Below are positions 33,154 to 53,321 of a stretch of DNA of 64,000 nt, one piece after another. Origin of the DNA: Lachnoclostridium sp. Its GTDB lineage: Bacteria > Bacillota_A > Clostridia > Lachnospirales > Lachnospiraceae. How positions within the stretch are numbered: the stretch's first letter is position 1; each line of letters starts with the position of its first letter. The DNA is taken from NCBI GenBank assembly GCA_015057755.1, contig SVDR01000003.1, forward strand, positions 3,625 to 67,624, given 5' to 3'. Below the pieces are notes generated by a model. It was not told the DNA's origin and did not search any database. It saw only the letters and a list, made by a program, of their open reading frames with translations. Made by a program: the position numbers and the translations under genes.

Positions 33154-33904
33154 TGTTCAACTCCATTTCAAAACCGACTCATTGACCAAGCAGAATCGAC
33201 ACGCTGACTACTCAGAATCAACACATCAACCACGAAAAATCATCAAATCGTCCAAATGAAAATCATCGAATTATCCCTCTGGGGTTCGCCCTTCTAGCAG
33301 AAGGCCTCACACAAAAAACGCAAAGCTTCACCTCTCGATCTACCGCCTCTGTCGGCTTTCGGCCGGTTTCATCCGGCCTCAGTCAGCCTCACTCCGGCCT
33401 CACCAGGTCTCAATCCATTCCATTTTCCCTCTCCCAGAGTTGGACCCTCAAGGTCCCTCAACAGGCCCTCCAGGTCCAACTCCCTTTCTTCCCTTTTTTC
33501 CTCATTCTCACCCAACCGAGGATCCGGATTCATTCGAAGAGTTGAATCTGGGTCCGTGTCTGTGTTCCCTTTTTCCTTGTATTTACAAGGTTTTCTCGTT
33601 CTTTTCGCTTTTCTTTTCCGCTTTTTTAAGGGCCTCATGAGGGAGTTTCAAAGAAAGGTTCTTTTTTCTTTTCGGGCTTTTTGAAAGGAAGAGAAAAAGA
33701 GGGAAAAAGGAAGAATGAAGATGGAAGACTCTGTGATGGGCCTTTTGAGGTCTGCAGAAGAACCTGCAGAAGCAAACCCAGAGACAGGGACAGAGGCCGG
33801 GAAAAAGCTCCCGGCCTCTGTTGATTGGCTGCTCTAGTTTATCGAGAGTGGACCGCGCCGATTTTGGAATGGACGGCGCGAGGATTACCAAGCGGATGTG
33901 AACA
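33154..33904. repeat. 751-bp cassette, left copy (complete L-end/R-end mini-transposon)
   Basis: The copy looks identical to that at 52571-53321 when read side by side. It starts TGTTCA and ends TGAACA. The left part carries five AATC-type repeats spaced 22-23 bases (33172, 33194, 33216, 33238, 33261) and the right part carries inverted counterparts near 33883, 33860 and a weaker one near 33837, as expected of TnsB binding sites. The middle has a 10-bp inverted repeat around 33437-33481, an 11-bp-arm hairpin (CAGAGGCCGGG with CCCGGCCTCTG) at 33791-33820, and a pyrimidine-rich then purine-rich stretch. No convincing gene is seen in it. Confidence 0.88.
33172..33283. promoter_or_regulatory. Array of five 22-bp TnsB-type binding repeats (left end)
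   Basis: Repeats begin at 33172 (AACCGACTCATTGACC), 33194 (AATCGACACGCTGACT), 33216 (AATCAACACATCAACC), 33238 (AATCATCAAATCGTCC) and 33261 (AATCATCGAATTATCC). The 22-23 base period places them on one face of the helix. The same array is repeated at 52589-52700. Confidence 0.8.
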
Positions 33905-34090
33905 AAGAGTCCCGGAATAATTCTACCTTGTACCTTTACTATACATTACCCGCCTGAGAGCGTATAGCCGGGAAAGCGCCTAAAGTTTTTTCATCAGTGC
34001 AGTGCAGAGTGCCTAAATCTCCTTTTCGACCCAAGGGATCTTGCATTTTATCTTCAGCAAGAAATCTCTTGACTAACGATAAGGAAGTGC

Positions 34091-35062
34091 ATGTTCATGG
34101 CACAATTTACATTCATCGATTTATTCTGTGGTCTGGGCGGATTCCGACATGCCCTAGAATCATTGGGCGGGAAGTGTGTATTTTCCTCTGACATTGACCC
34201 ATATGCCTGCGCCACATACAAAGCAAACTTTGGAGAAGAGCCAGCCGGAGATATTACTAAAATCGATTCAAAAGATATTCCACCATTCAATGTTCTTTGC
34301 GGAGGATTCCCATGCCAGGCCTTTAGCCTCGCCGGCAAGCAGCGAGGGTTTTTGGATAAACGTGGTACTCTCTTCTTCCAGATTCTTCGGATTGCAGCGC
34401 ACCATAAACCGGAAGTTCTTTTTCTGGAAAATGTAGAAAACCTGATCCGCCACAATGGAGGGCGTACACTCCAGGTCATCCTTCTCTCTCTGCAGGCCTT
34501 TGGTTACAAGGTCCATCACAAAGTCCTCATTGCTAACGATTATGGTGTTGCCCAGATTCGTAAACGTCTCTATTTTGTCTGCATTCGTGAAGATCTTCAA
34601 GTCTCTTTCAGCTTCCCTGAACCCTTTGGAAATACGACTGCCGTCGAAGACTATCTCGAGGAATCCGTAGATGAGAAGTTCTTCATTGATGATCCATCCA
34701 TTCAGTTCTATAAACCAGAGCTGACAGAGCGTATCAATGCCACCTATAGGATTGGCTACATCGGAAAAGTCTCTCAATCTCATCGCATATACAGTGTCAA
34801 AGGTGTCACTCCAACCTTTGTCTGCCAAAGTCGAGGTCCCGGCGGTGGAACCGAGGCTTATCTAGTAAACGGTAGGGTTCGAATACCTACGCCACTGGAA
34901 GCAAAGCGGATTATGGGCTTTCCCGATGATTACATCTTCCCAGTATCAGATGAAAAAGCTCTGGAGCTTCTTGGAAACTCTGTCGCAGTCCCAGTTATCC
35001 ATGCAATCGCACAGGAAATTATCAAAACAGGGCTTTTCGACTCTCCCAATGTGGAATCTTAA
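34091..35062 (+). CDS. C5-cytosine DNA methyltransferase, orphan
   Basis: This is a complete 323-residue type II C5 methyltransferase. Motif I (FIDLFCGLGGFRHAL) binds S-adenosylmethionine, motif IV (GGFPCQAFS) has the catalytic Cys, motif VI is ENVENL, motif VIII is QIRKRLYFV, and motif X (GNSVAVPVI) closes the protein. The target recognition region is short, so the recognised site is probably short. No restriction endonuclease lies nearby, so it is probably a protective or regulatory methylase that shields the element from host restriction. The first ATG follows AAGGAAG. Confidence 0.95.
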   Translation: MFMAQFTFIDLFCGLGGFRHALESLGGKCVFSSDIDPYACATYKANFGEEPAGDITKIDSKDIPPFNVLCGGFPCQAFSLAGKQRGFLDKRGTLFFQILRIAAHHKPEVLFLENVENLIRHNGGRTLQVILLSLQAFGYKVHHKVLIANDYGVAQIRKRLYFVCIREDLQVSFSFPEPFGNTTAVEDYLEESVDEKFFIDDPSIQFYKPELTERINATYRIGYIGKVSQSHRIYSVKGVTPTFVCQSRGPGGGTEAYLVNGRVRIPTPLEAKRIMGFPDDYIFPVSDEKALELLGNSVAVPVIHAIAQEIIKTGLFDSPNVES

Positions 35063-35544
35063 ACTTTTTCAAGGAATTTTCCCTATTTTTTTGTCATTTC
35101 CAAAAATTAAATTATAATATATATAGATAGTTTTCGCCGGCGGGCTAGGGAGCCCTTCGGCGCGCCGCGAGGCTACAATACAGATAGTTGCAACTAACCA
35201 CGTGAACATTGAAAACTAAATGAGCCGTAACATCGAGGAGCCTCCGGGCTCTGTATCAGAACGATCCCTGACGATTCCCAAGGCGGCCGTATCCTAAAAA
35301 CCAACCATTTTCTGCTTATAAATTGTCCGCGAAAATATGTACAATTTTCTCCATTGTTTTTGTGCATATTGCTGAATCGCAAAAATTTTCAAAATAAAAT
35401 GCGCGAAACCTCGAATTTCTCACATATTAAATATGTCAGATAAAGGCGATACAGTAATCAAAGCCTAGTCGCAGCGCCGTATATCTGGCACAGATCAATC
35501 GAGAAATTTACCAGACGGTCACATACCGTCAGAAAGGATAAACG
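35063..35544 (+). other. Promoter and long structured leader or small RNA region
   Basis: About 480 bases without a gene. A good promoter (TTGTCA at 35091-35096, 16-base spacer, TATAAT at 35113-35118) should start an RNA near 35125. The RNA could fold several hairpins: GGGCT/AGCCC at 35142-35155, the 12-bp palindrome TAGTTGCAACTA at 35185-35196, GAGCC/GGCTC at 35238-35251 and GACGGT/ACCGTC at 35514-35530 just before the next gene's ribosome binding site. The stretch near 35384-35426 resembles one upstream of the RepL gene (47061-47103). It may be a 5' leader of the accessory gene cluster or an independent RNA. Confidence 0.55.
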
Positions 35545-35958
35545 ATGAAACAACATTTTACGAGCAGAGAAGATTTTGAAGCTTACACAGCAAGAACTGG
35601 ACTGGACGATGATGCTCATGCTGATATATACATGGGATATGGTACAACTGATTTCCGGGAAGCCTGGGATATTGCAGAAACTTGCTATCTGACTGACAAG
35701 GCATATATGCTCATGCGGTATAGTGAATATTGCTATCGCATGACACATGATATAGAGTTTGACAAAAGCTTCGAGGATTATCTTGATTGTGACATTGACT
35801 ACTATGACTACTACCACAGTACATACACAGACTGGCTCTGCCAGAAGACATCTTCAGACCATAGTACAGGAATGTACAGTTGGAACGAAGTTCAGAAGAT
35901 GATCCAACTGGCCGGAACCCTCATCACCGATAAAGACTACGTGCGTCTCAAAACATAG
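35545..35958 (+). CDS. Small acidic Tyr/Asp-rich hypothetical protein
   Basis: This 137-residue protein is strongly acidic, with dense Asp/Tyr stretches (DYLDCDIDYYDYYHS near residue 85) and no membrane segment or known motif. A hairpin (GACGGT/ACCGTC) and then AGAAAGGA lie directly before the ATG. The negative charge resembles DNA-mimic antirestriction proteins, but the family is not recognised, so that role is only a guess. It heads the accessory cluster that contains the Cas5-like gene. Confidence 0.7.
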   Translation: MKQHFTSREDFEAYTARTGLDDDAHADIYMGYGTTDFREAWDIAETCYLTDKAYMLMRYSEYCYRMTHDIEFDKSFEDYLDCDIDYYDYYHSTYTDWLCQKTSSDHSTGMYSWNEVQKMIQLAGTLITDKDYVRLKT

Positions 35959-36197
35959 GGCACACAGCAAGAAACCATTAGACCTGTTTTAACCGTCAGT
36001 ACATACCTGACAAGACCGTGATTCCAACCATAGAATTTTGTTTCCAACCTGAGAACCGCATTTGTATATGTTATGACTGCAAATGCCACCGCCTGTACAT
36101 ATGGGACAGGACTGTACATTGACAATTAAATCAATCCGCCACCTATGGCAAATCAAAATTATTGAAAGGGTCTCAGACCCAGAAAGGAAACAAATCT

Positions 36198-36596
36198 ATG
36201 CGTTTCACGTTTACTTTAATAGAGCTTGAAGGTCTGGAGTACCTTCTTGCACGAATCATCGGTGCATACGAAAGAGCTGCCGAGATTCCTGAAGATCAGC
36301 GCACAAACGTCCGTGAGATCACACAATTTGAAGCCGACAGAATTAGAATCGAAGACGGGCACCACGATGTCTATCTCCTCTATAACTTTGCCCTTGAGGA
36401 GATTTTCATCCAGGACAAGTACTGTCTGGCACGCGGCTACCGTGTAACCAGGGAAATAAGCGACATCTACAAAGAAACTCCGATTTTGGTCGATCTAACA
36501 GAATTCCTCTTTGACTACAGTATCGACCTGAACCGCCTGGAAGAAAAGATATACCGGGCAACAGAAACTATTACTTCACTTACAGAAAGGATATAA
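36198..36596 (+). CDS. Hypothetical protein upstream of cas5
   Basis: The start at 36198 (MRFTFTL) was chosen because AGAAAGGA lies nine bases upstream, itself directly after a GGGTC/GACCC hairpin; an in-frame TTG at 36162 would place the hairpin inside the coding region. The 132-residue protein is acidic and mostly helical, with no known motif. It ends five bases before the Cas5-like gene, so the two are co-transcribed. I do not recognise it; as the direct partner of a lone Cas5 it deserves attention. Confidence 0.7.
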   Translation: MRFTFTLIELEGLEYLLARIIGAYERAAEIPEDQRTNVREITQFEADRIRIEDGHHDVYLLYNFALEEIFIQDKYCLARGYRVTREISDIYKETPILVDLTEFLFDYSIDLNRLEEKIYRATETITSLTERI

Positions 36597-36601
36597 CGAA
36601 T

Positions 36602-37111
36602 ATGAAGAAAACAATGAAAGTACATATGTGTGGACCACTGCAGGCATACGGTAAGAAACCAGTTGGAGATTATGTTGCAACACACCATCAGCCAACCAGA
36701 TCAGCTGTTGCAGGACTTATTGCATGCTGTGGCGGAATCACGAAAGAAGATCCGCGATACAAAGAGATTGAGGATTCCATCGAAATCTCCGTAGAGAGTT
36801 ATCATACACCAAGACATGGCGAGCCACTTGTTCCGCTGACAGAGCCAAAGATTATCGTTGACTTCCAGTCCAACTCCACTGGTGAAGAACATTCCTTCAC
36901 TCGCAGGGAGTACATCTCTGACGCTTACTTCATCGTCAACCTGACCGCTGATGAGGATAAGATCGAACAGTACACCGCCTGGTTGGAAGACCCATACTGG
37001 CCGCCATACCTTGGACGTAAAAACTGCACTCCAAGCTTACCGTTCATTATGGACAAGGCTCCATGTGCAACAGGAGGCGATTCTTCCAATGAAAATACAA
37101 CGGATCAGTAA
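36602..37111 (+). CDS. cas5: Lone Cas5e-like protein, C-terminally shortened
   Basis: The 169-residue product matches Cas5 of type I-E (CasD): the N-terminal beta-strand and loop CGPLQAYGKK, the segment QPTRSAVAGLIACCGGI, the strand TRREYISDAYFIVNL and the Cas5 signature PPYLGRKNCTPSLPF. E. coli Cas5e is about 224 residues; this one stops about 50 residues earlier, and the next gene's ribosome binding site lies inside its last codons, so the shortening is natural. Cas5 normally holds the 5' handle of the crRNA in Cascade. No Cas6, Cas7, Cas8, Cas3 or CRISPR array is in the element, so it cannot form its own Cascade. A role as decoy or adaptor is inference. Confidence 0.88.
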   Translation: MKKTMKVHMCGPLQAYGKKPVGDYVATHHQPTRSAVAGLIACCGGITKEDPRYKEIEDSIEISVESYHTPRHGEPLVPLTEPKIIVDFQSNSTGEEHSFTRREYISDAYFIVNLTADEDKIEQYTAWLEDPYWPPYLGRKNCTPSLPFIMDKAPCATGGDSSNENTTDQ

Positions 37112-37532
37112 AATTGTTCCGGAACACTTTCAGCCCAAAGCAGTGCTAAGCACTTTAGACTGGGAAATCCTGCAGGACGCTGTCACGATACTGTTACGGG
37201 CATATTACTTCTATGAACTGAACCAACACTTTAGCACGGCAGGCCTGTTTAAACGTCTTCCGAATGCAAACTTCGACCGACTTGTCATTGCTCCGACTGA
37301 TGGAATCAGCGGACACCAGATCGGCGACTACTTACTCCGCGCGGCTTTTCTGACGGATGACCGATACATTCTCCTTGCCGCTAATCATATCTCCATGAAA
37401 GATTATGATACCATGGTGTTAGACACACCATCGACATTCTTCCTCGTTACAGACGATGACCGAGATTTTGTGACCGAGGACTTATATCAATGCTTTATCG
37501 ACCGGAACGAAATACCCGGGATCGAATTTTAA
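37089..37532 (+). CDS. Hypothetical acidic protein, paralogue A
   Basis: The ATG at 37089 lies inside the end of the Cas5-like gene (23-base overlap) and has AGGAGG ten bases upstream, so translation is coupled. The 147-residue product is acidic. Segments IGDYLLRAAFLTDDRYILLA and FFLVTDDDRDF, then LYQCFID, are closely matched in the gene at 37658, so the two are paralogues. No known domain is recognised. Coupling to Cas5 suggests that it acts with it. Confidence 0.75.
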   Translation: MKIQRISKIVPEHFQPKAVLSTLDWEILQDAVTILLRAYYFYELNQHFSTAGLFKRLPNANFDRLVIAPTDGISGHQIGDYLLRAAFLTDDRYILLAANHISMKDYDTMVLDTPSTFFLVTDDDRDFVTEDLYQCFIDRNEIPGIEF

Positions 37533-37657
37533 TGAACCATGAAACAGCCGGAGTCCGCATCTTCGCGGGCTCTGGTCCATTCGAACAAACTAATTTGTTC
37601 TATGCCGCAATAAGCGGTTTCAAATACAAAAATATATATTGAAAGGTAAATTTGATT

Positions 37658-40810: not shown

Positions 40811-41212
40811 TTACTTCACTAAATGGTCTTTCTTATAGACCAATGTAAACCACAGTTCTTCGTCCATATTTTCCATTGATATTACATCGGCCATATATAA
40901 TGCCATACGTAGCCGCTTCGCATCTACTTCCACCTCAAAACCCGCACTGTGTTTAATCGTAGCAGCAAATTCTGTTTTGTCCTCTTGAATTTCTAACAGC
41001 GCATCCACAGACTCAGCCACATCCTTCAAGACTGGTAAGATCGTTGTAGCAAACCACTCTGAAAGTTTCTCTTCCCGTTCCTTCTTATCATCCTCCTTCA
41101 TCTTTAAGATTGCCTTATGCACTTTAGCGAGCTCATGTCCTCGCATTTTGGCTATCGCATCATATACTTCACCCGATATCAATCCTTCTTCCGTGTAGTC
41201 ATATGTCTGCAT
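40811..41212 (-). CDS. Hypothetical helical protein of the mobilization region
   Basis: This 133-residue charged protein has a long helix (KVHKAILKMKEDDKKEREEKL) and a mixed C-terminal part. No family is recognised. It has GGAGGAAG six bases before the ATG and lies downstream of the relaxase on the same strand, separated by 170 bases, so it may be co-transcribed with it. A regulatory or accessory transfer role is only inferred from position. Confidence 0.65.
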   Translation of the reverse strand: MQTYDYTEEGLISGEVYDAIAKMRGHELAKVHKAILKMKEDDKKEREEKLSEWFATTILPVLKDVAESVDALLEIQEDKTEFAATIKHSAGFEVEVDAKRLRMALYMADVISMENMDEELWFTLVYKKDHLVK

Positions 41213-41381: not shown

Positions 41382-43076
41382 TCAAAGAATTTTTCGTTTA
41401 TATGAAAGGTCCCTGTGAAGACTCTCTGGGCCAGAACCAAGCAGATCCGGTGCTTTGGTTCTGGCTTGTTTGAGTAAACTGACGTTGTAGCCTTCCTGAT
41501 AGTGGTCTTTCAGTTTGGATTCAACCAAAGAATCGTATGCCGGTCTCTTGCCACGGACTAAGTCTTTCAGTTCTTTCGTAAGGGTCTGATTGGTCTGTAC
41601 GAGCATATGAAACTCCCTGTATAGAGAAAACTGCAGCTCCTGTAACTTCTGAATCCGCTTCTGCTTCTCTTCATATACTCCGAAGTTGATTGTTGCCTTT
41701 CCTTTCTCCTTCTGTGAAATATGCTTGACTTCCGCGAGCCGTTGTTTTAAGACCTGTAGATGTTTTTCGTTCTCCACTATCTCTTCTTTTAGAAGCTTCC
41801 TCTTTTGAATCTGAAACGGATTGGTTTTCTCCAACTGTCTCTGTGCCTCTGCGATCACATGACCCAATGCTTCGATCGTTGCCAAAAGCTGTTCCGTTGC
41901 CTCTGCTGTGGCACGTGCCTTCTCCAAAGCTGTCCTCTTCTGTTCCTGCTCCGATACTGCCTCTTCCGACAGCGCGAGCTGTTGATATGCTGTCACGATC
42001 GCCTGCGCCCGGATTCCTTCCAGACGTGACGCAATATGCTTCATTCGTTCCCTTTCCTTATTTTCCAGTTGTTTGAGTTCCACTTCCAACTTGTACAAGA
42101 AGCGGTTATCTTCCTGAATCTGTCGGTTCAAATCGCCTCTGTCGGTGCGGATTCCTTTCTTCTCCATCTGAAAAGCCTGAACTCCCATGTGTACACCTGC
42201 GATTCTTGCGACTCCCTGTTCCGCATATGAACGGTGATCGATCCGTGTATCAATCCCATTCTCCTCGAGTACACGGTTGCAAGTAACCGCCCAGTTCTCA
42301 CGCCATCTTTTAAGGGTATCCTTAGAACTCCACTGCTGGATGGACGGATTCAGCATTTTCACGGTTGCCGGATACTTGTTCACACGTTTCAGTCCTTTTT
42401 CCTCTGCTTCTTCCGCAGTCATTTTCACTTTTCTCTTTCCCTGATAGTAGTAATACAGTTTCTTCCAACCCTCTGCTTCGGCCTGTGCTATGAAACGGGC
42501 CGGGATGTTCATCTGAAGATTGTCTCTCCGGCAGGTGTATGCCTTTTCTGACTTTGACTCCCACTGCCCGTTTTCATCTATCGGCCTCATAGTCAGCATG
42601 ATGTGGACGTGGCAGTTTCGGAAGATCATCTTTGACAGATCGTTTGTCGGAGTTCCATCTTTATCTACCGGGATTCCTTTTCCGTTCGTGATTGGCGGAT
42701 GATGGATCGAGAAGTCCGCGCACATCCCGTTGCAAATGAAATTCTCCAAAATATACTCCCGCACTAATGCGATCTGCGTTTCCAGAACCAACTCCTTCGG
42801 AAGTCCGATTTCAATTTCCCTCGCAAGCTGTGCATTACTGGACTTCTCTGCCTGTTCAACCGAGTTCCAGAGCGTGGATCGGTCTTTAAACTGCTCCGGA
42901 ACATAAGCCGGTGTTAGTACTTCGCTGTGGACCACCCAGTTCTTTCTTGTAAAATCATATGTGAGACCATCCCACTCACTCTCTATCTTGCTTGCTGACC
43001 GATAAGCCGCAGCCGCAATCGCGGAACGGCCTTCTGATCGGCTTATTATCTGTGCGCTCAAATGAAAATTTGCCAT
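41382..43076 (-). CDS. mobL: MobA/MobL-family relaxase
   Basis: This is a 564-residue MOB-Q-type relaxase. The start at 43076 (MANFHLSAQ) has AAGGAG 10 bases upstream; a longer in-frame version would run into the oriT. The N-terminal domain has the catalytic-Tyr-bearing segment AAAAYRSASKIES and the metal-binding His pair NCHVHIMLTMRP near residue 160. The C-terminal 250 residues form a long coiled coil with many Glu and Lys. It nicks the oriT lying just upstream and pilots the strand to a recipient. The layout matches IncQ-like MobA. Confidence 0.93.
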   Translation of the reverse strand: MANFHLSAQIISRSEGRSAIAAAAYRSASKIESEWDGLTYDFTRKNWVVHSEVLTPAYVPEQFKDRSTLWNSVEQAEKSSNAQLAREIEIGLPKELVLETQIALVREYILENFICNGMCADFSIHHPPITNGKGIPVDKDGTPTNDLSKMIFRNCHVHIMLTMRPIDENGQWESKSEKAYTCRRDNLQMNIPARFIAQAEAEGWKKLYYYYQGKRKVKMTAEEAEEKGLKRVNKYPATVKMLNPSIQQWSSKDTLKRWRENWAVTCNRVLEENGIDTRIDHRSYAEQGVARIAGVHMGVQAFQMEKKGIRTDRGDLNRQIQEDNRFLYKLEVELKQLENKERERMKHIASRLEGIRAQAIVTAYQQLALSEEAVSEQEQKRTALEKARATAEATEQLLATIEALGHVIAEAQRQLEKTNPFQIQKRKLLKEEIVENEKHLQVLKQRLAEVKHISQKEKGKATINFGVYEEKQKRIQKLQELQFSLYREFHMLVQTNQTLTKELKDLVRGKRPAYDSLVESKLKDHYQEGYNVSLLKQARTKAPDLLGSGPESLHRDLSYKRKIL

Positions 43077-43122
43077 CTGAATCACTCCTTGAAATTTATT
43101 TGCTGCCTGTGGGCTGTTATTT

Positions 43123-43158
43123 ACACCACCCCACAAGGGTGGTGTATAAGTGCGCCCT
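43123..43158 (+). other. oriT with IncQ-like nic site
   Basis: A 9-bp inverted repeat (ACACCACCC at 43123-43131 and GGGTGGTGT at 43137-43145) is followed at once by TAAGTGCGCCCT (43147-43158). The nic core of RSF1010-type oriT is TAAGTGCG/CCCT, with the nick after TAAGTGCG, and it also follows an inverted repeat. The site lies 47 bases upstream of the relaxase start, in the usual position. Confidence 0.85.
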
Positions 43159-43639: not shown

Positions 43640-44587
43640 TTATCTTCTGTGTTTATGTCCTTCCATGGAAGTTCCAACTGTCATTTTCTGTTCTGCTCCG
43701 GCCAGTTTCAGCTTGTGGCCATCACAGTAATACACATTATCCGTCAGTTGATCCTGCATTGGGACATTTTCAGCATTAACACTGCGCACCATGTTCCTCA
43801 ACACATCGACTCCATGTTTCCACTCCTTTGTAGGGATGATGATTGTCTCATGGATTGAAGATGGTAACATATAAAAATCCGAATCCAGACATTCATGTAC
43901 GGCCTTCATCACAACTGGATCAAGAGCCACAGCCGCACCCTGAAGCCCTCTGGAACTTCCGAGCAGATACATCGGGTTTGCGGTTCCTACGATCGAACGG
44001 TCAAATGAACCGTTAAATTCCCTCTGATAAATACTAATATCATCAAAACCAAAGATGAAGTTTTCGAGTGGATAAAAGTTTGCTGTACGTCTTAGGTTCT
44101 CCGTCGCCATACCAAGCATTTCTTCTTTCGTCATTCTAAGTTGTCCCATAATTTCTTTGCTCACAACTAAAGAAGTATCGTCTTCCACACACCATTTGGC
44201 ATAAAGAGCCATATCTTCAACCCGCTGATGTGGGATGTGCTGCAGCCATTCCTTGTTCCTCTCATATCCCACCACACATGCCATCAATTTTTTAGCCGCC
44301 TGCTCCGCGTCAAAACTTTGAATATCAAGCGCCGACATCTTTTTAAAAAGAACATCTTCACGGATGCCCAGGATCAGCTCTTCCATCGATAACCCTTTTT
44401 TCCATTCTTCATACCGGTCCTTCGGGTATATCACGATACCCACATGTGTAAAATCTCGACAGATTACGATTCCGGCCAGGTCTTCATTATTCCTGTGTAT
44501 CATAGTTTTAGTAAGCGTGCACCCTCTGGGTTCCATTGCATTTACCAATGCATCGTAAAAGCTATTCTCGAAGCTGTTATAATTCAT
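43640..44587 (-). CDS. DUF5688 family protein
   Basis: This 315-residue protein matches the DUF5688 family of Lachnospiraceae plasmids and integrative elements. Visible features are LNLAGIVICRDFTHVG-like strand VICRDFTHVGIVIYPK, a central helical part and the C-terminal segment SSIHETIIIPTKEW with HGVDVLRNMV. It abuts the TraG-like gene: its start lies one base before the stop of the upstream gene. Its function is unknown; it may help recipient entry or plasmid stability. Confidence 0.78.
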   Translation of the reverse strand: MNYNSFENSFYDALVNAMEPRGCTLTKTMIHRNNEDLAGIVICRDFTHVGIVIYPKDRYEEWKKGLSMEELILGIREDVLFKKMSALDIQSFDAEQAAKKLMACVVGYERNKEWLQHIPHQRVEDMALYAKWCVEDDTSLVVSKEIMGQLRMTKEEMLGMATENLRRTANFYPLENFIFGFDDISIYQREFNGSFDRSIVGTANPMYLLGSSRGLQGAAVALDPVVMKAVHECLDSDFYMLPSSIHETIIIPTKEWKHGVDVLRNMVRSVNAENVPMQDQLTDNVYYCDGHKLKLAGAEQKMTVGTSMEGHKHRR

Positions 44588-46192
44588 CTATGTACCTCCA
44601 AGTCGTTGGTTATATTCCCTGACCTTATCAGCCAGGATATTTAGCATTTTGTCTTTGAAATAGAAGGCTTTCTTAATCCTCAGATACCCGATCCCAGACA
44701 CTACGATTATCACTTCTTCGTCTCTTGTTAGAGTTACCAGATCACTGGTCTCTATGATCGGACGGTCTTCATAAGAGTATGATCGGTTGCGGTTCTTTCC
44801 CGTGTTCTGTGTTTCCCTTTTGTCCTTAAATTTGCCGGCCCATTCAGACACCATCCGGCCGGTCTCGGGATCACTCGCTTCACAGATAACCTTCACGCGG
44901 CAGTTATCAACCAACACTTTCGACTCCGCTTTTGAGTACACCATCTCCACCTGTCCCAGGGACTGGAACGCGAGTAGGATCATAACCTTTTTGCTGCGGA
45001 GTGTTGCCAGAGCTCCGAAGATTCCCTCGATACGACCAAGTCTGGCAAACTCATCGATCACGACCAGAACAGGCTTCTCTTCGTTTTCACTCCGGCGTTC
45101 AAGCTCCCTCAGGGTCTGAACCGTACACAGACGCATAAGCGGTTTATAGCTTTCAAGCAAATGCTCCGGAACTGCCAGGAAGATCGACTTACCTTCACGG
45201 AATGACATCGGACTTGCCTTTGTATAGTTGTCCCGCAGACAGAAGCGGATGTCGGATTTGCTGAAGATAGATAACGATGTGGTCATTTCCGTCATGATGT
45301 CCTCGATACTCTCGGCTTTCTTCCCTGCATACTTCGCCAGATACTTATAATGCAGATCATTCCGGTCACTCTCTGAAATAATGTCCGCAATCAGTGTCCC
45401 TAGTTCAGCTTCTAGTATTCGATTCACAGAGTCGATGAACGAATCTCCCTGTTTGTAAAAGTAAAGGAGCAGCCCTGTGAACATGGTCCGGGCGTTCTCC
45501 ACGAAAAAGGTGTCCTGAGTACTGGTGCTGATGATAAGGGACTGAGCAATCTCTTCCATGGTCTCTATGAGCAGATCGCCTGATGGATTTTTGTGTAAAC
45601 GATAATACGGGTCCCATCCACAGCTTGTACGGTCACTGGGATCAACCACCATGACCTCCTCATCGTACCTGTAGGTTGATTTTTCATGAAGTTCTCCCTT
45701 GATGTCGATAGCAAAGGTCTGATATGACTGTTTTCTGGCCGCGAAATTCGCAAGCAGCGTATCAAGAAGAACAGTGGATGTTTTTCCAGAACCTGGTCCT
45801 CCGATGATACAGTAGTGATATACTGTGTCCAGCGGGATTCGCACGTACTTCTTTCTCCACTTTCCAAGAACGATCCCTTCCGGTTCCTTTGATAGCAGTT
45901 TGCCCGGTACTTGTGGATGGATGGCCTGTTGCTTTAATGCGGACTCCTTCCTGATCCGCGAATCCGGGATCAATCCATCTCCGATCACAAACTCATCCAG
46001 GCTCTTTCCCTCACACACTGTGGACCAGAGATTATTAAACATGATCCACACCAGAACAGCCAGGGAGAGGATTGCGATTTGCGATACCTCGATGTTCTCA
46101 TAAATCCGTGGCAGGATTAGCGCCAGTACTGGAACAATCCATATCCCGGTCCATGCGATCAGGTTACGAATCGTCTTCAGGATCCGTTTCAT
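44588..46192 (-). CDS. VirD4/TraG-type coupling protein
   Basis: This 534-residue ATPase couples the relaxosome to a type IV secretion channel. The start at 46192 has AGGAGG eight bases upstream. Two membrane helices lie near residues 10-55. Walker A is GGPGSGKTST near residue 150, Walker B is VLVVIDEFARLGR near 375, and the RecA-like core follows. No other T4SS gene is in the element, so transfer needs a channel from another element. The small gene at 46164 overlaps its first 29 bases. Confidence 0.93.
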   Translation of the reverse strand: MKRILKTIRNLIAWTGIWIVPVLALILPRIYENIEVSQIAILSLAVLVWIMFNNLWSTVCEGKSLDEFVIGDGLIPDSRIRKESALKQQAIHPQVPGKLLSKEPEGIVLGKWRKKYVRIPLDTVYHYCIIGGPGSGKTSTVLLDTLLANFAARKQSYQTFAIDIKGELHEKSTYRYDEEVMVVDPSDRTSCGWDPYYRLHKNPSGDLLIETMEEIAQSLIISTSTQDTFFVENARTMFTGLLLYFYKQGDSFIDSVNRILEAELGTLIADIISESDRNDLHYKYLAKYAGKKAESIEDIMTEMTTSLSIFSKSDIRFCLRDNYTKASPMSFREGKSIFLAVPEHLLESYKPLMRLCTVQTLRELERRSENEEKPVLVVIDEFARLGRIEGIFGALATLRSKKVMILLAFQSLGQVEMVYSKAESKVLVDNCRVKVICEASDPETGRMVSEWAGKFKDKRETQNTGKNRNRSYSYEDRPIIETSDLVTLTRDEEVIIVVSGIGYLRIKKAFYFKDKMLNILADKVREYNQRLGGT

Positions 46193-46313
46193 GCTGTCTA
46201 TCCTCCTGGCGTATCTCAGCCGCCACCTTATATACATGATACCGATCACGTTCTAATAACAGCTCATCCATCTCGTCTTCGTGGATGATATAGTATTTCC
46301 CTATCTTCCTCAT
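46164..46313 (-). CDS. Small hypothetical protein overlapping the TraG start
   Basis: This 49-residue acidic-to-basic product (MRKIGKYYIIHEDEMDELLL) has GGTGAGG before its ATG and overlaps the coupling protein gene by 29 bases in another frame. It may be translationally coupled to that gene. No motif is recognised, so support is moderate. Confidence 0.5.
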   Translation of the reverse strand: MRKIGKYYIIHEDEMDELLLERDRYHVYKVAAEIRQEDRQHETDPEDDS

Positions 46314-47141
46314 GTTGTACCTCACCTTGTATATTGCCTTCTAATAGTATTATGCAAGAATGCTCAACAAAAAATCGCACTTCTTACCCTTATACACCAC
46401 TAAATTTCGATTATTCACAATGTAAGTGAGTTAATGGGATGTTATCCACACATTTCCCTTGTTATTTGTGTATACATCTATCCGCTTATCTTCCTCCACT
46501 TATGTATTACAGTACCTATAGAGTTCCTTATGAGGCCGAATCCCTCCGGGATCTATGAAGCCAGATTCATTGTTCTATTTGATGAAGCCTGTTGCACTCC
46601 TGATGTCTGTGTCATCCACTTGCTGAAGATTTCCAGTTACACTCTTACCCAAACAAACACAGGGCGGCATACATCAGGCACTCGAGGATGACACAGGGCA
46701 CTCTCTGTGACGGAAACACCTGGATTCTGATGGACTCTAAAGAACAATCCCGCCATGATTTCAAGAAGTTTACCCGCGGGATTGTGGCCTCATGCAAACT
46801 TAACAATAGCTCGGCCTGCTCATGGCCTCGGATGGCGCCTCTAGGTTGCTCTGGGTTCTCCCAAGGTTCTCATAAGGTATGAACAAGTTAATTGGCATAA
46901 ATACCAGATAATAACAACAACTTGGGAAAAACCTCGGTTTTCCTTGTAAATACAAGGTTTTCTCAATTTTACAGAGTCTGATTTTTCTATATCCAAGATT
47001 CTGCTTTTTTGTTTGAGCCTGACAGATCGCGAAAGAATTTCCGTCAAAAAAACTTGCAGAAATTTCAAAATAAAATTCGCCATTTTCCCTAAAACTCACA
47101 TTATATATAAGAGAATAATCATAAAAGAAAGGATATTGTAT
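46314..47141. other. 828-base gap, candidate plasmid origin region
   Basis: No convincing gene. It contains a dyad CCTTGTAAATACAAGG at 46942-46957, inverted AATCCCGC/GCGGGATT arms near 46747 and 46780, and ends just before the RepL-like gene. The stretch near 47061-47103 resembles one before the accessory cluster (35384-35426). A replication origin for RepL plasmids is usually near or inside rep, so the region is a candidate for oriV and copy control, but I cannot show iterons. Confidence 0.45.
46942..46957. promoter_or_regulatory. Palindromic dyad shared with the 751-bp cassettes
   Basis: CCTTGTAAATACAAGG here, CCTTGTATTTACAAGG at 33575-33590 and 52992-53007; all three are preceded by TT and followed by TTTTCTC. 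The shared symmetry points to an operator or recombination site used by the element. Confidence 0.55.
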
Positions 47142-47567
47142 ATGAAACTTCCCGTAAAGATTCCACAGCTCATGCGGTCTGATGGAAAGCTCAAGCTTGT
47201 CACAACCTCGAACTGTTCTCTCCGCAACTACCGCCGCATTTTTAATAATCAGGCTTTGCCCGTTATCGCACACTTTGCAAACAAGCAGACCCAGGTACTT
47301 CTGTACCTCATGTACAACGCAGATTCTAACAATTCCATTTTCTGCACCTATGCTGACATCATGGGTAACTGTGAGATCAAAGACAGATCCCTTGTTTCCA
47401 AGGTCCTGAAGGAGCTGACTGAAGCAGAAGCGATCGTAAAACTCACAACCTCACATTATATGCTGAACCCAGCGATCAGCATGCAGGGCAATAATGAGAA
47501 GTTCGGCCTTCTGGCCTCAGAATTCAATTCGTATGTAATGGAAAGTAAAAGAAGAAAGGAAAAATAA
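47142..47567 (+). CDS. repL: RepL-like plasmid replication initiator
   Basis: The start at 47142 has AGAAAGGA nine bases upstream. The 141-residue product has the winged-helix layout of Firmicutes RepL proteins: TQVLLYLMYNADSNNSIFCT, then YADIMGNCEIKDRSLVSKVL and YMLNPAISMQGN at the C-terminus. RepL starts rolling-circle or theta replication of small plasmids. Its presence in the enclosed part shows that the element can be, or was, an autonomous replicon. Likeness is by pattern only. Confidence 0.75.
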   Translation: MKLPVKIPQLMRSDGKLKLVTTSNCSLRNYRRIFNNQALPVIAHFANKQTQVLLYLMYNADSNNSIFCTYADIMGNCEIKDRSLVSKVLKELTEAEAIVKLTTSHYMLNPAISMQGNNEKFGLLASEFNSYVMESKRRKEK

Positions 47568-47900: not shown

Positions 47901-47938
47901 ATAAACGGATGCCCTCTGGGGCACCCGTTTATTTTTTT
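47901..47938. terminator. Bidirectional terminator between rep and tns operons
   Basis: Arms AAATAAACGG and CCGTTTATTT around TGCCC..GGCA, with a T run on the plus strand. It closes the rep operon and lies at the end of tniQ. Confidence 0.85.
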
Positions 47939-48887
47939 ATGCGGTCCGTTGCCGTTTGTATCGGAGCCGTTTATATGGTGATCCACATAGCTGCCGTTCA
48001 TATTCGCCTGCAGCATTCGGCTTTCCAAAGGTTTCTTCCGGCATTTGACCGATCAGAGTTGCGAGAATGATGTATCGTTCCGGCGACGGAAAATTCCAAC
48101 TGCGCAACTTCATGGAAAGGCCCTGTGTAAAATATCCTCCGAAGCAGGAGCGTATAATCTGTGGTCCGTAAAAACCAACAAGGTCCTCGTATAGCTTCTC
48201 CGTGTCAATCATCCCTATACGGCTCCCGCAAACCGTACGATATTTTGCTTCCAGTTCGTGATCCAGATTGCTGTAGCCCTTAGTCGGGCTAAGCTCAAAC
48301 GGTGCCACCAGATACCGGTACATCATATCAGCCAGTTTCGACTCATACTCCTTTACCTCAAAGTCTGGTTCTCCAACCGTTTCGATAAAATCTGGCAGCA
48401 CAATGCTCTGCTTCCACTCCGTCACCCGTTGGTATTCGATCAGTCTGCAATGGTGTCTGGGACAGACTGTCATAAATGGTAGCTGATGTTCCCTGTGCCA
48501 GTAACTCTCTCCGTATCTGTCAACTTCTTCTTTCTGGCAGATTGGACAATACCGCAGTGTCTGCTTTGTTCTCGGTGTCGTTTTCCACCCAAAGTCCACT
48601 TGTTTCTCCTGAGATACGGACTCCAACAGTCTCTGTTTTTCCTCAAATGGTTTGATCCTACAGAAGTAAGGGAAGAGTGTATGGTTTATGACCAGTTTTT
48701 TTACATCAAAGACGTCCTCCGGCAGTGTCTGCAGTATATTGAAGATACTCCGATTTGGAAAAAGAAAGAATGGCTCTTCGCTACTGCGGTTCAGTAGCAT
48801 GCTCTTATTACAGCTCCTGATATGGAATCGGCACAATACGCTGTACCAAAGTTCATCCGGGTATGGAGTGGGAAAATATGGGAGCAT
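47937..48887 (-). CDS. tniQ: TniQ/TnsD-family target selector
   Basis: This 316-residue protein starts at the ATG 48887, whose first base is the last base of the TAA of tnsC (TAATG), so translation is coupled. TniQ features are PYPDELWYSVLCRFH near residue 11, the zinc-binding RYCPICQKEEVDRYGESYWH near 115 and CPRHHCRL near 142. TniQ/TnsD proteins choose the target and recruit TnsC. At this length it is like the short TniQ proteins of Tn5053-type and some Firmicutes elements rather than Tn7 TnsD. It is the only candidate selector here. Confidence 0.92.
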   Translation of the reverse strand: MLPYFPTPYPDELWYSVLCRFHIRSCNKSMLLNRSSEEPFFLFPNRSIFNILQTLPEDVFDVKKLVINHTLFPYFCRIKPFEEKQRLLESVSQEKQVDFGWKTTPRTKQTLRYCPICQKEEVDRYGESYWHREHQLPFMTVCPRHHCRLIEYQRVTEWKQSIVLPDFIETVGEPDFEVKEYESKLADMMYRYLVAPFELSPTKGYSNLDHELEAKYRTVCGSRIGMIDTEKLYEDLVGFYGPQIIRSCFGGYFTQGLSMKLRSWNFPSPERYIILATLIGQMPEETFGKPNAAGEYERQLCGSPYKRLRYKRQRTA

Positions 48888-50224
48888 TATATACACCTTC
48901 TTTCTATCAGATTTAACTCCTCAAGTCTCTTTAGGAAGTCCGTTCCACTTTTTGACAATTCCAGAATATCGGTCTCATCTCTTCCCGATTCCGGCCGGCC
49001 TCGCTTCGTTGCAAAATAACGATGGCCTGATTCCTCAGATCCTTCCATCTCTACTTCCTTCACATTAAAATCCGATATGCTTGTGCCGTTGCCTCCGTAA
49101 TACTTGGGAACATCGATTCCTAGCATTGCGACTGCCTGCTTCATCAGCTCATACGTGACCTTCTCCGCACCCGTAAGGATTGCCTGGATCTGCGCTTCCT
49201 GTACCACCTTCACGATGTATGCGGGAATCCCGGCGGTCAGGTCATAAATCTGCTTCATCAGTTTCTCTGTAAGCTCACTCTCTTTCAATGTGACCTGATA
49301 GTTCCAAAGCTCTGTGATAAACTTCCGGTATGATACATCATACTTTAACGGCAGGAGTCTCAGACCTCTTGTTCTGCGTTTTAGATGTTCCTTTTGAACA
49401 AACAACTCTTCCGCATCCAGGGTTCCGCAAAAGAGCAGGGACGTGGCGGTCTCGTTTGTCAACTCAACCAGAAACTTGATCAGCGGCTTCGTCTGGTTTG
49501 TCTTCGCGGCTGTCCGCACGGCATTCTGTATCTCATCGATCACAATGACTCCTACATGATGGTTCATGCAGATGATTTTCAGTTTTGCAGAAAGAGCGCT
49601 TGCTGCAAGATTCCTCGACTTTGCAATCTGTGTAAAGTAATCAGATCCAAGTGCCCGGTCTATCGCTGCAAGGGTATTAAAGACCATCGTTTTAATGGAA
49701 CAGTCAGACGGACATTCCACCACAAGGTAGTTGATCTGCTTCGTGTAAAACTCCTTTCCCTGATACCGCGTGTGTAGGATGACCTGTGGCATGAGACTCA
49801 GACACCTGCGGATCGTAGACGTTTTTCCGATACCCGGCACTCCAAGAACTGCTCCCGAATACACCTGTGTTGCATATGGGAGTGAGCGTTCCCGTCCTGT
49901 TCGAAAGTCCATATATATCGCATTGAGCTGACGGACACTCTCGACGATCGTCTTAGACTGATAAGTAGATGTCATTGCACGGTACAGCATGTCATATACC
50001 ACATACATATAGTCCATCGGTTGGAACCACTTATCCAGATCCATCGTTTTCGCACGCCGTTCTTGTGGGCTCAGTTTTTCCATACCATATGAGCCAGGCA
50101 GATTGCTGCGGATCATCTCATTGAATGCTTCCCTCGACAACTGTTCCGGCAGCGCCTCCATATATGGATTTCCGTTCTCTTCTTTGTACTCCGCGGATAC
50201 CATGACTTCGTTTATGTACTTCAT
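48887..50224 (-). CDS. tnsC: TnsC-like AAA+ ATPase
   Basis: This 445-residue ATPase links target selection to the transposase. Walker A is GVPGIGKTSTIR near residue 130, Walker B is VGVIVIDEIQNAV near 235, and sensor segments follow (SLLFCGTLDAEEL). The N-terminal 120 residues are a linking domain. It is coupled to tnsB by a TAATG overlap and to tniQ by a second one. In Tn7-like systems TnsC filaments mark the target and give immunity. Confidence 0.93.
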   Translation of the reverse strand: MKYINEVMVSAEYKEENGNPYMEALPEQLSREAFNEMIRSNLPGSYGMEKLSPQERRAKTMDLDKWFQPMDYMYVVYDMLYRAMTSTYQSKTIVESVRQLNAIYMDFRTGRERSLPYATQVYSGAVLGVPGIGKTSTIRRCLSLMPQVILHTRYQGKEFYTKQINYLVVECPSDCSIKTMVFNTLAAIDRALGSDYFTQIAKSRNLAASALSAKLKIICMNHHVGVIVIDEIQNAVRTAAKTNQTKPLIKFLVELTNETATSLLFCGTLDAEELFVQKEHLKRRTRGLRLLPLKYDVSYRKFITELWNYQVTLKESELTEKLMKQIYDLTAGIPAYIVKVVQEAQIQAILTGAEKVTYELMKQAVAMLGIDVPKYYGGNGTSISDFNVKEVEMEGSEESGHRYFATKRGRPESGRDETDILELSKSGTDFLKRLEELNLIERRCI

Positions 50225-51993
50225 TACACGACCTCCTTCTCACGATTCTTTTTGATAATCTCTGGATTCACTCTGCCCTTGACAGCGCTTTCTTTCCCAT
50301 CAAGGATCCCTCTCACTTCCTTTATGAACTTCAGTCTTCCTTCAGCTTCTGCCTTTTGCAGTTCGCTTCGTTTTTCCCGTTCTGCCTTTTTCTGGGCCCG
50401 GAGTTCATCCTCCGTGATTCCCATATACCGCTTGTACGAACTGGAAAGTTCAAATTGAACCCATTCCTTCTCCGTCCGCACATAGATATTTGACACATCG
50501 TTCGGGTCAAATGCGATTGTTATTTTCTCCTTTCCGTTTACATTCTCGAAAATTCGATTATAATATTTATGCCCGTATAAGAGACCCTTGTAGAAGATTC
50601 CCTTTCGGCTCATGGCAACCTCAGTACGTGGCAGACCCATCCGGTATACTAATTTCTCATCGACCGGGATCATATCGGATCTGCCCTGTTCCGTATACCA
50701 GTTCCACAATCTTGCCGGTACCGGGTCAGCTTCACATGGTAATGCCGGGCAGTCCTGCAGCACCCGGCTGCTGTTTAGATACAAGATTGCGTGAATGACG
50801 ATTTTCGTGAATTCCTCCAGATTCAAGACAGCCTGGTTTCTGTAATCAACTGCCCATCGCTCCTCAAAGTTTCTTTCGATTGCACCATTTCCTCGAAGGA
50901 ATGGAAAATATCTGTCTTGCAGAAGATCAAAGCTCTTCTCGATCAGGCCTTTACTATCTGGCCTGAACGGCGGAAGTGTCTGGATATCAATCCCAAACGT
51001 AGAGACCCATTCCATCACACGTTTTCCCGTGAATTCCCTGCCTTTGTCGGTGATGATTTCGCTTGGAAGACCGCGGCTCGGCCATTGGTCCGCAGTAATC
51101 TCAATCCCATACTTCTTACAGAACGCAACCTTATCCTCAGCCGCATTACAGAGACAGGCGATCACAGCCTCCTCGCCATCCTCAAACCCAATGTATATTC
51201 CGGCAATCAGCTGTGTCACGGTATCGACTGCCATGTAAATATTCGGTCGTCCGATTACAGAGCTCTTATCCGTTCTTGACACCAGGTAGATGTCAGCATG
51301 CGTTGCGTCCATCTGATATGCGCCAACCCGCTTTCTCCATTCCATTTCAGAACCATGGAGCCCTCTCTGGTTCCGCTGATAATCCGAAAGTCCCTCACGT
51401 GCAATTCCTTTCCGCGCCTGCCTGTGATACCCGTTTTTGTAAAAATAGTGCCGGAACTGCCACCAGGTCGGGCTGTCTTCCTTTAGAACACCGTTTTCAT
51501 CCATAAATCGCGCCAAAAGCATAAGGTCAAATGCTGTTTGCAGGGAAACCCGTTTGGCACTGTAGTAAAACTCTTCAATCGCCCATGAAAACACCCTCTC
51601 AACGTCTGTTTTGGGTCTCTCAATTACTTCTCGTTCTTCGATTAATGGCCTTCCAGCAAGATGTTTATAATACAACAGCTGTATCCTGCGGATAGTTGTC
51701 TGATTATTCTCCGCCACTTCCTTAGCCACTTTTCGCCTCTCTTTTCGGTCAAAAATGCACTTTTCATTGATTATCAATGGATAAATGAGTGCTTCTCGCC
51801 GTTTTTGTCCCTCTGTGGACTCTTTCTCCATGCGGTTCAAGAAATCGGCCGGAAAGGCTATTCTCGTCATTGAATTATTTTCGGACTCAGGAATAAATCT
51901 CGGTTCACGTGGGTGATCGTACGATATGATCCACTCTCCGTCTTCCATCCGTTTAACCAAACGAAAAGTCTCTCCCATATACTCGTAGAACAT
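50224..51993 (-). CDS. tnsB: TnsB-like DDE transposase
   Basis: This 589-residue transposase has helix-turn-helix domains in the first 200 residues and an RNase H-fold core with catalytic Asp in YQMDATHADI near 230, Asp in IITDKGREFTG near 315, and Glu in SKGLIEKSFDLLQ near 350. A basic tail rich in Lys, Arg and Glu follows, as in TnsB. It should bind the 22-bp repeats at the cassette ends and join the 3' ends to target DNA. The ATG lies four bases after the tnsA stop. Confidence 0.95.
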   Translation of the reverse strand: MFYEYMGETFRLVKRMEDGEWIISYDHPREPRFIPESENNSMTRIAFPADFLNRMEKESTEGQKRREALIYPLIINEKCIFDRKERRKVAKEVAENNQTTIRRIQLLYYKHLAGRPLIEEREVIERPKTDVERVFSWAIEEFYYSAKRVSLQTAFDLMLLARFMDENGVLKEDSPTWWQFRHYFYKNGYHRQARKGIAREGLSDYQRNQRGLHGSEMEWRKRVGAYQMDATHADIYLVSRTDKSSVIGRPNIYMAVDTVTQLIAGIYIGFEDGEEAVIACLCNAAEDKVAFCKKYGIEITADQWPSRGLPSEIITDKGREFTGKRVMEWVSTFGIDIQTLPPFRPDSKGLIEKSFDLLQDRYFPFLRGNGAIERNFEERWAVDYRNQAVLNLEEFTKIVIHAILYLNSSRVLQDCPALPCEADPVPARLWNWYTEQGRSDMIPVDEKLVYRMGLPRTEVAMSRKGIFYKGLLYGHKYYNRIFENVNGKEKITIAFDPNDVSNIYVRTEKEWVQFELSSSYKRYMGITEDELRAQKKAEREKRSELQKAEAEGRLKFIKEVRGILDGKESAVKGRVNPEIIKKNREKEVV

Positions 51994-51996
51994 CCG

Positions 51997-52389
51997 CTAC
52001 ACCTCCTTCTCCATCACAACGATTTTCCAGTTGTCAATCTTGGATAGAGCCCAATACCTTCGGGAAAATTCCAGTTTTTCAATGACTGCTCTCTTTGACA
52101 GCATTTCCTCCGTCACTATCTCCCGGACAGCGATCGTTCCATTCATGTATCGGATCACAAAATCACTCACCCATGCTCCTTCAAAATACTCTTTTCGGAT
52201 GTCCACTCTTGGGATGTACGGGAATATCTCCTGGTCCAGTTCCACCTCTACTTCATATGCCTCTACTTCTGTATTGGCTTCTAGCAGCCTGGCATATTCC
52301 CTCGCAAGTTCTGTATGGGTACAATACGTGGAATCGTTCTTGCTACTTTTAAAATGAATGTCTCTTCGTCTCTTTCCCTGTCTTTCCAT
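51997..52389 (-). CDS. tnsA: TnsA-like endonuclease, short and divergent
   Basis: This 130-residue protein corresponds to the catalytic part of TnsA: helix THTELAREYARLLEANTEVE, then WVSDFVIRYMNG carrying the Asp, then AVREIVTEEM and the helix SRRYWALSKIDNWKIVV. In Tn7 the active site is a restriction-like Glu, Asp and Lys; here a Lys after the second acidic residue is not evident, since the strand ends REIV. TnsA normally cuts the 5' ends so that transposition is cut-and-paste. If this one cannot, transposition would be replicative. It is the first gene of the operon and lies next to the right cassette. Confidence 0.85.
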   Translation of the reverse strand: MERQGKRRRDIHFKSSKNDSTYCTHTELAREYARLLEANTEVEAYEVEVELDQEIFPYIPRVDIRKEYFEGAWVSDFVIRYMNGTIAVREIVTEEMLSKRAVIEKLEFSRRYWALSKIDNWKIVVMEKEV

Positions 52390-52570
52390 ACGGTATACTC
52401 CTTTTCATTTATTCAAGGTGAATGATTCGGAATCACGTCTCATTTGTTCACAGAAATGACATTATTTAGCTACAAAACGGCCATAAACAGCGGATTTTTG
52501 AACCTCTCAAGCCCGAAAATCGGCTTTTTTACCACAAACTCGGAATAATTCGATTTATTCGGAATTTCTA
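52390..52570 (-). promoter_or_regulatory. Promoter region of the tns operon, with repeated TTCCGAAT blocks
   Basis: The 181 bases between tnsA and the right cassette hold three copies of a TTCCGAAT-like motif (52428, 52541-52549 and 52560-52567) and the AAAGGAG site of tnsA. The 11-mer CGGAATAATTC at 52541-52551 recurs at 33913-33923 just after the left cassette. A regulator may bind here. The -10 and -35 are not clear to me. Confidence 0.45.
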
Positions 52571-53321
52571 TGTTCAACTCCATTTCAAAACCGACTCATT
52601 GACCAAGCAGAATCGACACGCTGACTACTCAGAATCAACACATCAACCACGAAAAATCATCAAATCGTCCAAATGAAAATCATCGAATTATCCCTCTGGG
52701 GTTCGCCCTTCTAGCAGAAGGCCTCACACAAAAAACGCAAAGCTTCACCTCTCGATCTACCGCCTCTGTCGGCTTTCGGCCGGTTTCATCCGGCCTCAGT
52801 CAGCCTCACTCCGGCCTCACCAGGTCTCAATCCATTCCATTTTCCCTCTCCCAGAGTTGGACCCTCAAGGTCCCTCAACAGGCCCTCCAGGTCCAACTCC
52901 CTTTCTTCCCTTTTTTCCTCATTCTCACCCAACCGAGGATCCGGATTCATTCGAAGAGTTGAATCTGGGTCCGTGTCTGTGTTCCCTTTTTCCTTGTATT
53001 TACAAGGTTTTCTCGTTCTTTTCGCTTTTCTTTTCCGCTTTTTTAAGGGCCTCATGAGGGAGTTTCAAAGAAAGGTTCTTTTTTCTTTTCGGGCTTTTTG
53101 AAAGGAAGAGAAAAAGAGGGAAAAAGGAAGAATGAAGATGGAAGACTCTGTGATGGGCCTTTTGAGGTCTGCAGAAGAACCTGCAGAAGCAAACCCAGAG
53201 ACAGGGACAGAGGCCGGGAAAAAGCTCCCGGCCTCTGTTGATTGGCTGCTCTAGTTTATCGAGAGTGGACCGCGCCGATTTTGGAATGGACGGCGCGAGG
53301 ATTACCAAGCGGATGTGAACA
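52571..53321. repeat. 751-bp cassette, right copy (complete L-end/R-end mini-transposon)
   Basis: It looks identical to 33154-33904 by side-by-side reading, in the same orientation, offset 19,417 bases. It starts TGTTCA right after TTCTA and ends TGAACA right before the AACTA duplication. It holds the same 22-bp repeat arrays, central dyad (52992-53007), hairpins and purine/pyrimidine tracts. A homologous exchange between the two copies would excise the element and leave one copy with the AACTA duplication. Confidence 0.88.

Follow-up and report, generated by a model that had tools for sequence, protein, structure and literature searches.

A geneless two-ended Tn7-like cassette flanks a putative mobilizable plasmid in Lachnospiraceae: probable integration by targeted cointegration

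A stretch of 64,000 nucleotides from Lachnoclostridium sp. (contig SVDR01000003.1, positions 3,625 to 67,624; hereafter the window) harbors a complete insertion of 20,168 bp, in which 18.67 kb of plasmid-like DNA is enclosed by two 751-bp cassettes displaying the ends of a Tn7-like mini-transposon. Our analyses indicate that this insertion is probably a mobilizable plasmid in its integrated state, ~19.4 kb in size (a single cassette and the 18.67 kb), whose transposon is reduced to a geneless cassette with left (L) and right (R) ends, and which would fuse with its target by cointegration. The evidence includes the anatomy of the insertion and its target-site duplications, the recurrence of the same layout in independent relatives, a fixed attachment site, cassettes found alone, and the absence of the catalytic lysine from TnsA-like proteins of the window's family.

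Results

Two identical cassettes around plasmid-like DNA

The two cassettes lie in direct orientation, and their comparison revealed no differences over 751 bp, with the identity extending 3 bp beyond the left edge and 2 bp beyond the right edge; a chance origin of such a repeat is far too unlikely. Along the insertion the order is AACTA, copy 1, AAGAG, the enclosed DNA, TTCTA, copy 2 and AACTA, so that the outer borders match whereas the inner ones differ. Each copy starts with TGTTCA and finishes with TGAACA, and A-rich sites spaced ~22 bp apart are found inside both of its ends (both features read by eye, the sites without a binding-site model). The repeats, their terminal sequences and ~22-bp arrays, and the outer and inner borders had been described in a first-pass annotation made from the letters of the window alone, which regarded each copy as a full L-R cassette, and they were confirmed here. 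The start of tnsA is located 181 bp outside the inner end of copy 2, and therefore the smallest two-ended unit holds no recognised gene; the 751-bp cassette is itself the smallest mobile L-R unit, and the tns genes are placed outside it.

The same layout in independent relatives

Two independent relatives, G552 and G204, display the arrangement found in the window, with outer borders that agree and inner borders that differ. Genome G552, which we take to belong to Enterocloster together with G002, carries 460-bp cassettes at positions 6089-6548 and 15100-15559 of L084 (448/460 identical), with GGAAG outside on both sides and AAGTA and TACTT inside. Its insertion is found on a 5.39-Mb contig and still retains a tnsA fragment, MobL and a small open reading frame (ORF) shared with the window, and no TnsB was detected in this genome at 1e-80. 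Genome G204, from the family of G002, encodes a TnsB 32-34% identical, and its two 294-bp cassettes (6120-6413 and 33217-33510) are mutually identical, with AATTG outside, ATGGA and TCTCC inside, and ATAT termini rather than TGT. This insertion follows a gene read as fba on a 217-kb contig, and its interior encodes a helicase, a DnaG/Toprim-type primase, a DUF5688 protein and SSB. The presence of the layout on these two contigs argues that it is no peculiarity of the window assembly, and the proposal that a two-ended cassette serves as an integration module with the tns genes outside it thus found support in both genomes.

A decayed insertion was also identified in G555, where the 5' part of a cassette follows a gene read as galE and the 3' part ends 13.9 kb further on, with GTAAT on both outer sides; a search between the two parts recovered no match to any of the 18 window-element proteins. 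A matching 5-bp outer border was therefore present in 4/4 insertions with both outer ends resolved (window, G552, G204 and G555), a match expected by chance in ~1 in 1000 cases per insertion. All three complete pairs have their cassettes in direct orientation around the plasmid, and older partial cassettes are located just past the outer duplication in G552, G204 and, by eye, G555. The window cassette has only short stretches in common with those of G552 and G306, the best match (E 6e-5 in each case) covering 29 bp in G552 and 47 bp in G306.

A fixed attachment site

In the window and in G552 the insertion lies between a gene for an AGCS-type symporter and a PPIase-GNAT gene pair, at 129 bp and 130 bp, respectively, from a conserved intergenic box. 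This near-equal distance, in elements whose cassettes share short stretches only, points to targeted insertion. The SIMPL gene was not found at the AGCS site of G552, where AGCS and the box are ~4.3 kb apart and the intervening DNA holds ORFs that by eye resemble transposase and reverse transcriptase genes. The ispE and SIMPL genes of the window find matches of 61-62% at best, from which we take its host to be an uncultured member of the family of G002 (Lachnospiraceae). Element-free AGCS-SIMPL-PPIase-GNAT arrangements were found in L043, L047 and L048, the last with the box inverted, and L044 shows AGCS-SIMPL up to the contig end. Further insertions are located directly after guaA (G002, G559, G306 and L101), nrdR (L005-L007), galE (G555), fba (L102) and a gene for an enzyme of the phosphoenolpyruvate/pyruvate dikinase type (L103), the target gene names being read by eye from translations or sequence. 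The tnsA-side (R) end faces the target gene wherever tnsA is present, as does the corresponding end in solo cassettes. A fixed attachment site used in one orientation is what characterizes Tn7-like elements, and by analogy TniQ would be the target selector.

As a separate observation, the intergenic box is strongly conserved among the window, L043, L044, L047 and L084 and ends with a hairpin and a T-run (AAGATTTTTTTCATAATACTCGGGCTGATAA...TCTCCTCCC); it resembles a small RNA not yet described, or the terminator of one, and no Rfam match was obtained for it in the window.

A TnsA fold lacking the catalytic lysine

The Pfam families recognised in the window include MobA_MobL, the type IV secretion system (T4SS) coupling protein, RepL, TniQ, TniB/AAA, rve, Mu-transpos_C and Tn7_TnsA-like_N, two of them with scores under the cut-off (TnsA-like_N, 21.7 vs 26.5 bits; rve, 26.3 vs 32.6 bits). 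The earlier description of a RepL-MobL-TraG plasmid that also encodes TnsABC-TniQ was thus recovered at the family level. TnsC (TniB, AAA_22) and TniQ scored above the cut-off, as expected of a Tn7-like element. TnsB matched the Tn7 TnsB structure 7pik (E 4e-53) in the PDB, and its residues D229, D316 and E352 were invariant in 26/26 aligned sequences.

The window TnsA-like protein displays the Tn7 TnsA fold; a PDB sequence search with the single protein gave no match, and a profile weakly matched 1f1z (E 0.023). The position of the catalytic lysine was set by sequence alignment to 1f1z, with E63/D114/K132 taken by us as the active-site residues of Tn7 TnsA. Residues 89-97 contain no lysine in 19/19 of the closest sequences, and the column aligned to the Tn7 QVK motif lacks lysine in 16/16 loci, wider relatives included (stop signs were removed from the translations before this 16-locus alignment). 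Consequently, TnsA of the window's family is not predicted to be active in second-strand cutting, replicative cointegration is the predicted outcome, and a lysine-less TnsA would explain a cointegrate as the product.

Cassettes without the plasmid

Solo cassettes are found at guaA in two relatives. In G306 this gene is directly followed by five complete cassettes (454-470 bp) with spacers of 5, 5, 4 and 3 bp between them and a sixth partial match of 108 bp ~5 kb away, and tblastn at 1e-3 detected none of the 18 window-element proteins in the 20 kb around them. Four of these cassettes are ~92-93% mutually identical and one is ~79-80%, a divergence that suggests a record of several invasions. 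In G559, one complete 471-bp cassette follows guaA and is in turn followed by a truncated older end; the sole TnsB match at 1e-80 in this genome sits on a different contig. The first-pass annotation had asked for solo copies with their own 5-bp duplications: the solos exist, whereas no clear duplication was found in G559, and in G306, with its dissimilar spacers, matching duplications have not been retained.

Inspection by eye revealed a second end, facing outward and situated between tnsA and the outer end, in L001, L005, L006, L007, L012 and G002; such an end could not be placed by eye in L004, L008, L059, L083 and L067. Upstream of tnsA, the contigs of L001, L003, L004, L008 and L083 break off within ~1.5 kb, and 3/3 tnsA loci of G002 have an assembly gap, with the gaps covering both cassette places; such ends and gaps are at most suggestive, as they fit what a repeat would cause.

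Searches in wider collections were mostly negative. Distant blastn gave no match of the window cassette in PLSDB plasmids, and the TnsB search of PLSDB returned 3894 records, all under 60% identity and at ~30% in the best 20 of 3894. No TnsB was confirmed in IMG/VR viral contigs or found in two genomes of the genus of G176, and the window cassette gave nine matches of 27-55 bp, judged to be chance, in 397 genomes of the family of G002. In IMG/VR, a 23-bp window-cassette pattern was absent, and a 19-bp G552-type pattern occurred in one contig, L098, which has a cassette R end. This contig (IMGVR_UViG_2744054950_000005) starts in the cassette and continues, by eye, into a flank like the AGCS site of G552 and then a recA-like gene. 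In a protein database (entries P0001 and P0121), a 93% identical TnsB has a longest contig of 18,779 bp, near the predicted circle size; an identical TnsA occurs there on nine contigs, the largest of 78 kb, among which that of the window may be included.

Gene content and cassette interior

The coordinates of the element and its landmarks are collected in Table 1. The combination of a MobQ relaxase, a VirD4-like protein and TnsB is that of an integrative mobilizable element. Among the 18 window ORFs scanned, no further T4SS family was present, Pfam recognised no recombinase or resolvase (short overlapping ORFs and res sites fell outside this search), and Pfam, NCBIfam and PADLOC revealed no cas family besides Cas5e.

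Table 1. Features of the insertion and its attachment site (window positions)
Feature or predicted product	Position	Strand	Basis or remark
Left outer target-site duplication, AACTA	33149..33153		
Cassette copy 1, two-ended mini-transposon	33154..33904		751 bp; no recognised gene
C5 cytosine DNA methyltransferase (cargo)	34091..35062	+	Pfam PF00145
Lone type I-E Cas5 (cargo)	36602..37111	+	Pfam, NCBIfam TIGR01868, PADLOC
Small conserved ORF	40811..41212	-	tblastn; shared with G002 and G552
MobQ/MobA-MobL relaxase	41382..43136	-	Pfam and NCBIfam
DUF5688 protein	43640..44587	-	Shared with G002 and G204
VirD4/TraG-type coupling protein	44588..46249	-	
Palindromic CCTTGTAAATACAAGG box near repL	46938..46964		Near-identical to box within cassette
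RepL replication protein	47013..47567	+	Pfam PF05732
TniQ target selector	47937..48896	-	Pfam PF06527
TnsC-type AAA+ ATPase	48887..50224	-	
TnsB transposase	50224..51993	-	
TnsA-fold protein without catalytic lysine	51997..52389	-	
Cassette copy 2, same as copy 1	52571..53321		Outer end forms the tnsA-proximal (R) end of the full insertion
Right outer target-site duplication, AACTA	53322..53326		
Conserved intergenic box, attachment-site landmark	53380..53560	+	

The Cas5 gene raised the question of a CRISPR-associated transposon (CAST) directed by a guide RNA; this reading was set aside with a single cas gene recognised, no dedicated search for CRISPR repeats or guides having been made. The lone Cas5 of the plasmid may possibly act as an anti-CRISPR-like decoy.

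Short conserved motifs recur in and near the cassettes. The palindromic box (CCTTGTAWWTACAAGG) occurs at 33571-33597 and 52988-53014 as well as near repL (46938-46964), and GTATTTACAAGG is present in two cassettes of L084, five of L099 and one each of L087, L085 and G002; it was not found in L001, L012, L101, L103, L005, L006 or G204. The gap between cassette and tnsA in L002, L001 and the window (52390-52570; by eye in the window) contains repeats with GAATTAATCGGAG...CTCGGAATAATTC, possibly operator sites of the tns operon. Further, inspection by eye revealed a terminator-like hairpin ~60-130 bp inside the gene-facing cassette end in L084, L099, L087, L005, L101-L103 and the window; this hairpin perhaps insulates the upstream host gene. 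The RNA fold of the window cassette beat 20/20 shuffles (z -6.1), and RNAalifold on eight cassettes of relatives gave 87 pairs, of which 4 showed double changes, while the covariation term was close to zero; given this outcome, we found no case for a conserved RNA past the terminator-like hairpin. Rfam returned one sub-threshold match (E 0.96) and otherwise none.

Discussion

In the course of events that we infer for this plasmid, TniQ would select the fixed attachment site and TnsC would recruit TnsB, which would join both cassette ends of the circular plasmid to target strands staggered by 5 bp. With a TnsA-like subunit that is predicted to be unable to cut the other strand, the plasmid would remain joined, and replication across the cassette would yield the order target-cassette-plasmid-cassette-target with one outer duplication. 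Host recombination between the two copies could then release the circle and leave a solo cassette behind, and the freed circle would replicate through RepL and be mobilized by means of its relaxase and coupling protein. That the two copies do not differ at any of 751 bp in the window and of 294 bp in G204 favours cointegration without proving it.

Several observations weigh against this reading. The genome of G295 (2.9-Mb contig) carries tnsABC-tniQ after guaA with a single tnsA-upstream region genome-wide, bar a 32-bp match, and may be a decayed or an ordinary element; the draft G417 also has one copy. The elements are rare, TnsB at 1e-80 being present in 5/397 genomes of the family of G002 and 3/17 of the genus of G002. 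When inverted similarity between the ends of a cassette was tested by shuffling (11 regions, 200 shuffles each), a signal was obtained in L102 (0/200), L103 (0/200), L006 (1/200) and L007 (3/200), and in L012 (1/200) yet away from the expected end; six regions gave none, namely the window (35/200), G552 (156), G559 (139), G306 (134), L005 (49) and L101 (57). The cassette ends share short sites only, which makes this test weak, and the cassette borders of the window, G552 and G306 were set by duplications and repeat limits rather than by it. Regarding TnsA, L012 displays VKP one residue past the aligned column, like QVKP of Tn7, and several other wider relatives carry a lysine two to four residues further on, so that loss of the active site appears less certain among them than in the window's own family. 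Finally, among eight cassette copies columns 151-250 were the most conserved (0.93, with 0.79-0.87 at the ends), the opposite of what had been expected, which suggests that the interior has some role that the cointegration model does not explain.

Among the alternatives, a one-cassette circle may have entered an older solo cassette by homologous recombination, the outer duplication dating from that older insertion. As the first-pass annotation had anticipated, this event would yield the same borders, and solo cassettes do occur at attachment sites in relatives. Nevertheless, we consider it unlikely, since an older partner should have left mosaic differences unless very recent, whereas the copies are perfectly identical both in the window and in the distant G204; moreover, it still needs an earlier insertion of the cassette by transposition. 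It is improbable that the insertion is an ordinary 20,168-bp Tn7-like transposon moving by its outermost ends, with long repeated termini and the inner ends as relics. The target-site duplication at the outermost ends, with the tns genes between, agrees with such an element, tnsA normally lies just inside one end in Tn7-like elements, and G295 may be an example; however, inner ends also occur in distant relatives, inner and outer copies are the same in two elements, complete cassettes are found alone, and the window's family is not predicted to have the active TnsA that cut-and-paste movement requires. That the cassette is a mini-element resembling miniature inverted-repeat transposable elements, hopping with supplied Tns proteins, and that the plasmid was caught between two copies by chance, would account for single and tandem solos and has a parallel in Tn3 miniature elements flanking other DNA (TIME-COMPs; PMC13367494 and PMC4133298), but is very improbable given that several elements, even with a TnsB as little as 32-34% identical, have a cassette upstream of tnsA, and given the direct orientation in all three complete pairs.

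Cointegration of the plasmid through its own cassette can be compared with known systems. With Tn7 and canonical Tn7-like elements it shares the TnsB, TnsC and TniQ families, the TnsA fold, the 5-bp duplication, the arrays of end sites and the one-orientation insertion beside conserved genes. Unlike in Tn7, the smallest L-R unit excludes the tns genes, the catalytic lysine is missing from TnsA of the window's family, two complete two-ended cassettes surround the plasmid after insertion, and solo cassettes occur. TnGBS elements have single ends. TnGBS and its relatives are likewise transferable elements integrating by a DDE transposase, Mutator-related in TnGBS, whereas here there are Tn7-type proteins, fixed targets and cassette duplication. 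In Tn5053/Tn402 and type V-K CAST the tns genes are inside the transposon. These systems have no TnsA, and a cointegrate is expected from the lack of TnsA cutting (PMC8649781 and PMC11406308), as it is in our case. In contrast to those systems, where the cointegrate is an intermediate or by-product, the fused form here looks like the normal resident state, and no resolvase was found by Pfam in the 18 ORFs. In TIME-COMPs, two-ended mini-elements also flank a stretch of DNA, with the transposase supplied by a separate autonomous element; here the flanked plasmid would supply it, and the insertion sites are targeted. In agreement with the first-pass annotation, which knew of no Tn7-like plasmid working in this way, searches of open-licence PubMed Central, subscription literature aside, yielded no report recognised as describing a Tn7-like plasmid whose tns genes lie beyond a two-ended cassette present in duplicate.

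Cointegrates are usually viewed as an unwanted side product that is best avoided or resolved, and here fusion appears to be the integration route of the plasmid. If true, fusion occurs at a chosen safe site, with machinery never required inside the transposon, and constitutes a natural case of targeted whole-plasmid integration that would explain why the TnsA fold is retained minus its lysine. Elements of this type may be wrongly delimited by searches that assume a single end on either side of the tns genes. We lean, modestly given the weaker lysine argument in wider relatives, towards a broader proposal, namely that a whole clade of Clostridia elements has converted a Tn7-like transposon into an integration system resembling long terminal repeat elements, in which the transposon is a small geneless cassette, TnsA persists as a non-cutting subunit, targeted cointegration is the normal life cycle and solo cassettes that build up in tandem at attachment sites record invasions; solo and tandem cassettes would then be a readable fossil record of plasmid invasion in gut Clostridia.

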